Of a stretch of 38,073 nucleotides of DNA, positions 35,553 through 37,764 are shown one piece after another (position 1 is the first letter of the stretch; every line of letters begins with the position of its first letter). Source of the stretch: Thermodesulfobacteriota bacterium (GTDB lineage Bacteria; Desulfobacterota; Thermodesulfobacteria; Thermodesulfobacteriales; Thermodesulfobacteriaceae); the NCBI GenBank assembly GCA_030578315.1, contig JAUQQL010000012.1:1-38073 (forward strand). The letters are read 5' to 3'. A program made the translations under genes and the position numbers. The notes under the pieces were generated by a model, which saw only the letters and a program-made list of their open reading frames with translations, made no database searches and was not told the DNA's origin.

Positions 35553-37328
35553 CTAAAATCGAAATTCTAAATCTAAACCAAACCATTGAGGAGAACCTTT
35601 AACTCCTGAGATTTCTTCATAGTCTTCGTCTAAAAAATTCTCAGCCCAGAAGCTTACTTTTACTTTTTTGGAAAATAGCTTGCTCACTTTAAAAGACAAC
35701 AGCCATACTTTATCCATTTGATGCCTTTCTTGAAAATTTGCTAAAACTGCTGCCTCTATCTGATAAGGAAGTCTAATAAGAGTTCCCAATACTAACTTGT
35801 GTCTTAAATAAAATCCTTGATAATAGGAACTTTTAAGCTTTTTAGAAACTTGATTCAAATAAGTATAACTGTAAAAAAGGGAAAATTTGTTTAAATTTAT
35901 TTTTCCATCTAGTGTAAAACCTAAAGTTTTAACTTGGTCTAAGTTTTCAGCTTTTCTAAATTTCTGATAAATTACCCAATCTATTATATCTTTGCCTTGT
36001 CTGTAAAAAACTGTAACAGAACTTTTAAAAAGATTGTTTTCGTAATCTAACCCCGCTTCTAACTGATAAGACTTCTCAGGAGATAAATAGGGATTTCCCT
36101 TAATATTAGGTGAATCATAATAAAGTTCGGTAAAACTAGGAATTCTGTAAGAAAATCCAAAGGAAGTTCGCCACTTTAGTTCCGTCTTTATAAGGTAAGC
36201 TAGTCCAAAATTGTAAGAAAATAAGTCTTTATTATTAGTTATGTTGTCGTATCTTATACCAAAACTTGGGAAAAACTTGTTACTTAATTTAGGATAAAAC
36301 CAAAAAAATAAAGCAAAAGCTTGTCTTAAGTGGTCGCCCAGTCTTGAACTCTTAAGTTTTTCAGAAGAAAGCTCTGTTCCCAGGATATAATCCGCTTTAA
36401 TAGTTTCGTATCTAAAAGGTAAATTGAGTCTTAAAACTTGAGACTTATGGTGATTTTTATAAAAATATGGATTTTTTCTATTTAATAAGTAAGTATCATA
36501 ATGAATTCGGTATAAGATCCCGGGCTCTAAAAACCAGTTTTGACCGTAAAAAATATTTTTAAAAAGAAAAAGATGAGTTTTAACGGTTTCCCATTCAGTA
36601 GCATACCTACTAGTATAAAAATTTCTTGCCCCAAAATCTCTTTCTTGGAAACCATAAAAAAAGATTTTTTTGTCATCCTTAGTATAAAAATTAAAAGTTC
36701 TTATATCAAAATCCCGATTCCAGATAAACCCTTGAGCTTTTTTCTGAGAAAAGATTAATTTTAAAGGATAAAAAAATTCACTAAAACACAAACTTCCGTA
36801 GCTTTCTTTATAGTCATAACTTCCATATCTAGCTAAAAATTCAATTCCTGGTTGAGGAATTTTAAGATTAAAGTTGAGTACTCCTCCAAAACCTCCTGGA
36901 CCATAAAGAGCACTTGCTCCTCCAGGAAGGACTTCTACACTTTCTAAAATTTTATTTTCCCAAGGAAGGTTCATTAGATGGTGTCCAGTTTGGGGATCGG
37001 AAATTCTTATCCCTTCTAAAGTTACTAGATTTTGTTCAAAAGTTGTTCCTCTAAGAGAAATATCTTGCTGAACTCCAAAACCTCCTCTCTCTCTTAAATC
37101 CAATCCAGAATAAACTTCAGGGCCAAAATTTATTAACTCGACACTTTTTATAATCTTAACTTCTTGAGCTATTTTCTCTAATTTTTCTTTTTTTACAGGA
37201 GCAACAACTTTTACTTCTTCTAGAAGATAAAAAGGTTCTTCTTGAGCTGAACTATTTTGTATCCCTATAAAAAGAACAAAAAGTATAATTTTTAAAACAA
37301 GTTTTTTGTAAAAAAAGAGTTTTTTCAT
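35553..37328 (-). CDS. TonB-dependent outer-membrane receptor (BtuB/vitamin- or siderophore-receptor type)
   Basis: A signal peptide (about 1-28, ending NSSAQ) precedes a plug domain with SLRGTTFEQNLVTLEGIRI, NKILESVEVLPGGASALYG and GGFGGVLNF, the standard plug motifs. A beta-barrel of about 440 residues follows, ending in an aromatic residue (GLDLEFRF), needed for outer-membrane insertion. The barrel segment PSFTELYYDSPNIKGNPYLSPEKS is typical of the family. At 591 residues it is on the short, BtuB-like side. No cobalamin riboswitch fits in the short leader, so the substrate is unknown. It is a single gene with a strong promoter overlapping a large palindrome. Confidence 0.92.
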   Translation of the reverse strand: MKKLFFYKKLVLKIILFVLFIGIQNSSAQEEPFYLLEEVKVVAPVKKEKLEKIAQEVKIIKSVELINFGPEVYSGLDLRERGGFGVQQDISLRGTTFEQNLVTLEGIRISDPQTGHHLMNLPWENKILESVEVLPGGASALYGPGGFGGVLNFNLKIPQPGIEFLARYGSYDYKESYGSLCFSEFFYPLKLIFSQKKAQGFIWNRDFDIRTFNFYTKDDKKIFFYGFQERDFGARNFYTSRYATEWETVKTHLFLFKNIFYGQNWFLEPGILYRIHYDTYLLNRKNPYFYKNHHKSQVLRLNLPFRYETIKADYILGTELSSEKLKSSRLGDHLRQAFALFFWFYPKLSNKFFPSFGIRYDNITNNKDLFSYNFGLAYLIKTELKWRTSFGFSYRIPSFTELYYDSPNIKGNPYLSPEKSYQLEAGLDYENNLFKSSVTVFYRQGKDIIDWVIYQKFRKAENLDQVKTLGFTLDGKINLNKFSLFYSYTYLNQVSKKLKSSYYQGFYLRHKLVLGTLIRLPYQIEAAVLANFQERHQMDKVWLLSFKVSKLFSKKVKVSFWAENFLDEDYEEISGVKGSPQWFGLDLEFRF

Positions 37329-37361: not shown

Positions 37362-37389
37362 AGTATATAAAAGTAAAAACCTTTGTCAA
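37362..37389 (-). promoter_or_regulatory. Promoter of the TonB receptor gene
   Basis: On the minus strand a perfect TTGACA (37389-37384) and TATACT (37367-37362, one mismatch) are 16 bases apart. The start near 37355 leaves a 27-base leader with GGGAA ahead of the ATG. The -35 box lies inside one arm of the palindrome at 37382-37415, so a protein bound there would block this promoter. Confidence 0.65.
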
Positions 37390-37415
37390 CCATTTTTTAA
37401 AAAATGGTTGACAAA
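37382..37415. repeat. Perfect 34-bp palindrome between divergent promoters
   Basis: The arm TTTGTCAACCATTTTTT is followed directly by its exact reverse complement. Each end contains a TTGACA -35 box facing outward. It is centred at 37398.5 and looks like an operator for a dimeric or tetrameric repressor of the TonB receptor. As RNA it would also form a 15-bp or longer hairpin. Confidence 0.75.
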
Positions 37416-37437
37416 TTTTAAACAAAAAAATTTAGTA
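37409..37437 (+). promoter_or_regulatory. Candidate rightward promoter opposite the TonB receptor promoter
   Basis: TTGACA (37409-37414) and TTTAGT (37432-37437) are 17 bases apart. The predicted start near 37444 leads into 37445-37691, where no credible protein gene exists; the longest open frame runs into the tRNA. The transcript could be a small RNA or a long leader for tRNA-Lys. Another TTGACA at 37621-37626 is closer to the tRNA but has a poor -10 box. Confidence 0.35.
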
Positions 37438-37691: not shown

Positions 37692-37764
37692 GGGCCGCTA
37701 GCTCAAGTGGTAGAGCAATGGACTCTTAATCCATAGGTTGGAGGTTCGAGTCCTCCGCGGCCCA
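37692..37764 (+). tRNA. tRNA-Lys, anticodon CTT
   Basis: Acceptor stem GGGCCGC/GCGGCCC, D-arm GCTCAAGTGGTAGAGC, anticodon stem ATGGA/TCCAT with loop CTCTTAA (anticodon CTT), and T-arm GGAGG-TTCGAGT-CCTCC all pair well. Discriminator A, no encoded CCA. It reads AAG codons. An overlapping open frame ending PLAQVVEQWTLNP is only the tRNA read as protein. Confidence 0.95.

Follow-up and report, generated by a model that had tools for sequence, protein, structure and literature searches.

A predicted BirA operator at the promoter of a TonB-dependent receptor, a putative outer-membrane importer of biotin in Thermodesulfobacteriota

A perfect palindrome of 34 bp in the genome of a Thermodesulfobacteriota bacterium is, we consider highly probable, an operator of the biotin repressor BirA; in its biotin-charged form BirA would repress the adjacent gene of a TonB-dependent receptor, and this receptor would import biotin, a close vitamer or a biotin-bearing peptide. 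We infer BirA binding, the repression and the transported molecule from the match of the site to known operators, its conservation, the genome context and the presence and absence of genes. The predicted operator belongs to a known kind, and a TonB receptor under BirA control is apparently undescribed within the literature searched. A search of full-text literature, with most subscription papers outside its coverage, found no TonB receptor for biotin, and a published prediction may exist. The available parts of sources on vitamin transport and regulons assign biotin to BioY, YigM or BioYMN and mention no receptor for it in the outer membrane (PMC6593275, PMC5343134). TonB receptors with riboswitches have been described for B12 and thiamine, the thiamine receptor being proposed in Caldithrix and Bacteroides (PMC5317091, in the part available). 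The receptor described here has in common with these vitamin receptors a vitamin-responsive switch, predicted here, ahead of the gene; it differs from them in that the predicted switch is a protein, BirA, and from BtuB and the proposed thiamine receptor in that its predicted cargo is biotin.

The features discussed below lie near the right end of the window, by which we mean the whole stretch of 38,073 nucleotides that was analysed:

35553..37328, minus strand: TonB-dependent outer-membrane receptor of 591 aa, predicted for biotin or a biotin vitamer
37362..37389, minus strand: predicted receptor promoter TTGACA-16-TATACT, found by promoter scan (11/12 consensus positions)
37382..37415, 34 bp: perfect palindrome TTTGTCAACCATTTTTTAAAAAATGGTTGACAAA, the predicted BirA (biotin repressor) operator
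37383-37391 and 37406-37414: two 9-bp half-sites with 14 bp between them
37408..37413, plus strand: right-hand outward TTGACA, part of a half-site, with no matching -10 and probably not a promoter

The palindrome and the receptor promoter

The preliminary description of this DNA was accurate as to the element itself: at 37382-37415 each arm of the perfect inverted repeat has 17 bases, with zero loop, and a TTGACA points outward in both arms (37389-37384 on the minus strand, 37408-37413 on the plus strand). The runner-up among the loop-free perfect palindromes of the window has arms of 9 bases only, and judging from base composition about 2e-5 palindromes of the 34-bp kind are expected across a stretch of this length. 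The genome-wide search for the arm sequence that the description had proposed identified the palindrome as the sole occurrence in 1.67 Mb, with no second place for the pattern TTGTCAA-N0-30-TTGACAA.

The two TTGACA boxes had been read as the -35 elements of divergent promoters that one bound regulator would shut together. The leftward half of this reading stands, since the scan returned the receptor promoter and its -35 box sits within the left arm of the operator, the position that had been claimed. The rightward half is not supported: the scan gave no plus-strand promoter using the rightward TTGACA, the best -10 for which reaches about 4/6 by eye, and right of the palindrome there is no convincing gene apart from a tRNA-Lys at 37692, roughly 275 bp off. 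A pair of divergent promoters was rejected on these grounds, and the joint shutdown has no support. The outward TTGACA boxes are present because they are built into the BirA half-site GGTTGACAA.

Match to published BirA operators

The consensus published for BirA sites is TTGTAAACC-[N14/15]-GGTTTACAA (PMC545781, in the part available). Eight of the nine sites in Table 1 of that paper, from Geobacter, Desulfuromonas and Desulfovibrio and with the weakest omitted, were made into a BirA matrix, and the top score in 2 Mb of random sequence, 14.7, served as the threshold for counting sites. The arrangement TTGTCAACC-N14-GGTTGACAA of the palindrome has the highest score that the matrix allows, 32.75, and the second-best place in the 38 kb scores 8.4. 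The palindrome is an inverted repeat of the form TTGTnAACC-N14/15-GGTTnACAA and the only match in the whole genome to the relaxed pattern TGTHAACY-N13-16-RGTTDACA. With the published operators it has in common the half-sites, the 14-bp spacing and the position at a promoter, and its arms are nearly identical to those of the Geobacter and Desulfuromonas bio-gene sites; Geobacter bioF, for example, is preceded by TTGTcAACC-[N14]-GGTTgACgA (PMC545781, Table 1). It differs from the published operators in being the sole site found in its genome and in standing ahead of a TonB receptor rather than bio genes.

The palindrome is very probably a BirA binding site. The preliminary description had found it unlike a Fur box or a NikR site, as we do by eye, and had left its regulator and nutrient unnamed while expecting that they could be identified together. 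The fit to the BirA matrix now supplies a candidate regulator, the joint identification has come about as foreseen, and this makes biotin, in place of Fe, Ni, Co or B12, the nutrient to examine.

The receptor protein

The receptor combines a Plug domain (PF07715, 3.5e-11) with a beta-barrel (PF00593, 9e-23) in Pfam, an architecture that it has in common with the B12 receptor BtuB and the proposed thiamine receptor. Characterised TonB receptors mostly carry iron chelates or B12, which speaks for a site of some other regulator (Fur, NikR or another) that controls metal or B12 uptake, and so do the solved chains nearest to the receptor by sequence, which are those of BtuB and count against the biotin reading. 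However, the palindrome has the maximum score against published BirA sites, the receptor is found together with the BirA DNA-binding domain, and birA, bio genes and BioY are neighbours of receptor homologues. Against the BtuB family TIGR01779 the receptor scores 84.1 bits, where the cut-off is 599.7, and an Rfam scan of the 38-kb stretch gave two tRNAs only, with no B12 riboswitch or other match at the locus. A cobalamin riboswitch is absent from some btuB genes as well. With Rfam, the TIGR01779 score and the BirA matrix all against it, a metal or B12 switch was rejected as very unlikely.

Conservation of the site in relatives

In the upstream regions of orthologues, taken from 60 related genomes that were searched, a common element GTTAACC-N14-GGTTAAC was found, and one of the orthologues follows a BioY-like gene; it was this combination that led us to suspect BirA. 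The receptor occurs in 19 of the 30 genomes of the bacterial family (G000-G029; E < 1e-100). One of them, G014, was left out of the site count since its contig ends 20 bases upstream of the receptor, and in 16 of the 18 testable orthologues a BirA-like site scoring above 14.7 stands ahead of the receptor or its operon; the other two score 14.5, just under the threshold (G008), and 11.2, which is at chance level (G028). A profile of 17 orthologues, run against 395 genomes of the phylum, identified 18 genomes at E < 1e-40, 8 of them outside the bacterial family, and at five of these eight homologues a site likewise passes 14.7. The other three, which are the most distant (family f14), show no BirA-like site, a point against the biotin reading. 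The preliminary description had made its proposal depend on conservation in relatives, and by these counts, which come from related genomes and are not independent, the element is conserved.

By the same threshold none of 10 other TonB-receptor loci and one of 400 random 4.7-kb stretches had a site, and the positive control, bioB loci of the phylum, gave six in 30, all directly ahead of bioB. The arms of the bioB site at L098 are identical to those of 37382-37415. Sites above 14.7 were also found at 1/30 BirA loci and at 4/19 BioY loci, and a further three of the latter have weaker ones (3 mismatches); with strong sites at so few of them, BioY appears often to be outside BirA control in these bacteria.

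Relatives keep the outer half-sites, and the inner 14 bases, which are palindromic in the genome studied here, vary and need not pair. This bears on the reading of the palindrome as an intrinsic terminator or a cruciform rather than an operator: a terminator scan does flag the palindrome on the minus strand, with 1 hit where 0.2 would be expected, but the pattern in relatives speaks against it, as does the absence, within the contig, of a minus-strand gene that reads into the palindrome from the right. Given this context and the relatives, a terminator was rejected and we hold this reading to be extremely improbable.

Two further matches were noted within coding sequence. A second BirA-like site lies just within the start of the receptor gene at L013:75-106 (G004:C55), and a match scoring 20.1 lies inside a coding frame at L171:2464-2495 (G013:C1) and also in G001 and G006, where it is probably a chance match retained via coding conservation.

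Biotin genes and the BirA DNA-binding domain

The genome that harbours the palindrome (assembly 99.98% complete, 5.17% contamination) encodes a BirA that possesses the DNA-binding domain (G000:C21; L120:1483-2427), with HTH_11 (5.8e-13), ligase and BPL_C domains, as well as TonB (PF03544 at G000:C55, 3.0e-19). A homology search found no BioY in it, and neither bioB nor bioD was found above cut-off, with one 23-bit match to bioD below it. Possessing TonB and lacking bioB, bioD and BioY, this bacterium should rely on outside biotin. Among the genomes of the bacterial family bioB is above cut-off in 1/19 with the receptor versus 7/11 others, and bioD in 0/14 receptor genomes examined. The exception is G001, where bioB and the receptor are both present, which counts against the biotin reading; the contig with bioB could be a contaminant. 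At this locus (L091, G001:C30) bioB is found without a bioD match, as if dethiobiotin were salvaged.

The receptor is distributed together with the DNA-binding domain of BirA. Of the 30 family genomes 27 have a readable BirA (G003, G011 and G015, with a paralogue or fragments only, were excluded). By comparison with the BirA of the palindrome's source genome, 19 of these have the domain and 8 lack it; Pfam backs all eight absences, one presence and, in addition, the presence in the source genome. The receptor occurs in 18/19 genomes with the domain and 0/8 without it (p = 4e-6 by Fisher's test, for related genomes that are not independent and with relatedness uncorrected). The sole genome with the domain but without the receptor, G029, is 72% complete, and G007 (same genus, 99% complete) is without both receptor and domain. 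The loci at which BirA has no DNA-binding domain, the receptor being absent too, are L136 (G007), L127, L134, L141, L142, L178, L180 and L182.

BioY, of the ECF family, is the usual inner-membrane transporter of biotin. Its predicted substrate is the same as the receptor's, and in some genomes a BirA-like site stands ahead of it; it differs in working at the inner membrane and in being absent from the source genome of the palindrome. In all, BioY is missing in 6/19 receptor genomes, that genome included, which counts against the biotin reading. Biotin is also small enough to pass porins, so that it is not obvious why a receptor should be needed, a further point against that reading.

Gene neighbourhood of receptor homologues

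In three genomes (G077, G112 and G198) the receptor homologue lies directly behind birA. The run in G112 consists of birA, the receptor, bioF, bioD, bioA, an alpha/beta hydrolase and a methyltransferase whose best match is BioC, under the curated cut-off of that family, with two BirA-like sites. A bioD/bioA piece comes after the receptor in G222, with bioD recognised by eye and a class-III aminotransferase by Pfam. Taken with the operator over the -35 box, the occurrence of receptor homologues in bio operons or with BioY is in keeping with a role in biotin supply, and the receptor beside the palindrome is very probably an importer of biotin (vitamin B7).

A different cargo under the same control is conceivable: BirA may govern a receptor for a precursor (dethiobiotin, DAPA, KAPA or pimelate) or for biotinylated peptides such as biocytin. 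Such a precursor might be used in G112, where the receptor stands within a bioF-bioD-bioA-bioC operon, and the bioB without bioD of G001 would fit the salvage of dethiobiotin. The source genome and most receptor genomes, however, have neither bioB nor bioD, so that a precursor would not suffice for them by itself, although biotinylated peptides are a possible cargo in all receptor genomes. We consider this alternative unlikely.

Within the bacterial family, the single-contig genome G005 has a continuous open frame of 797 codons (L170:2820-5210, G005:C1) that runs through BioY, a signal-peptide-like stretch and the receptor. It lies behind a BirA-like site scoring 20.6, and an in-frame TTG stands ahead of the signal-like stretch by eye; the frame may give one protein, a precursor that is cut, or two coupled genes. 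In G205 (L168:104-3518, G205:C123) a site scoring 17.2 stands ahead of a sodium:solute symporter that is followed by the receptor homologue. These symporters share their superfamily with SMVT, the human biotin transporter. As a general inner-membrane partner the symporter was rejected, since a search of 31 relatives, the palindrome's source genome included, run without a positive control, returned none of its homologues at E 1e-20. In G008 and G012 the BirA-like site stands ahead of a small gene that lies upstream of the receptor and runs into it; in G008 (L169:2876-3238, G008:C2) Pfam assigns this gene to DUF1284, and a gene so placed between site and receptor is possibly a new member of the biotin regulon.

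A broader proposal is that a biotin-dedicated family of TonB receptors extends beyond this bacterial family and forms the outer-membrane half of BirA-controlled uptake of free or peptide-bound biotin, making with BioY a line across the whole envelope, in one species as a single frame that is maybe cut on export. The case for and against this proposal is, in our judgement, evenly balanced.

Regulatory model and significance

In other bacteria BirA charged with biotinyl-AMP forms a dimer on the operator and represses the genes; when unbiotinylated carrier protein is abundant it acts as a ligase and the genes are on. We apply this mechanism to the receptor by homology. When biotin is plentiful, BirA carrying biotinyl-5'-AMP would dimerise on both half-sites, cover the -35 box and shut the receptor promoter. 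When biotin is scarce, BirA would be spent as a ligase and be off the DNA, and the receptor would be made; energised by TonB, it would carry biotin, a closely related vitamer or a peptide bearing biotin over the outer membrane into a cell predicted to be unable to make biotin. With the operator over the -35 box and this logic of BirA, the receptor would be a biotin-starvation gene.

The biotin regulon of this genome would then have shrunk to one outer-membrane gene, and the survival of the DNA-binding domain of BirA would be tied to the receptor gene. The absence of BioY in six receptor genomes sharpens the question of how biotin takes the inner-membrane step. If the proposed function is true, a receptor family that is so far unannotated gains an assignment ready for the bench, and biotin would join the few vitamins that TonB receptors import.
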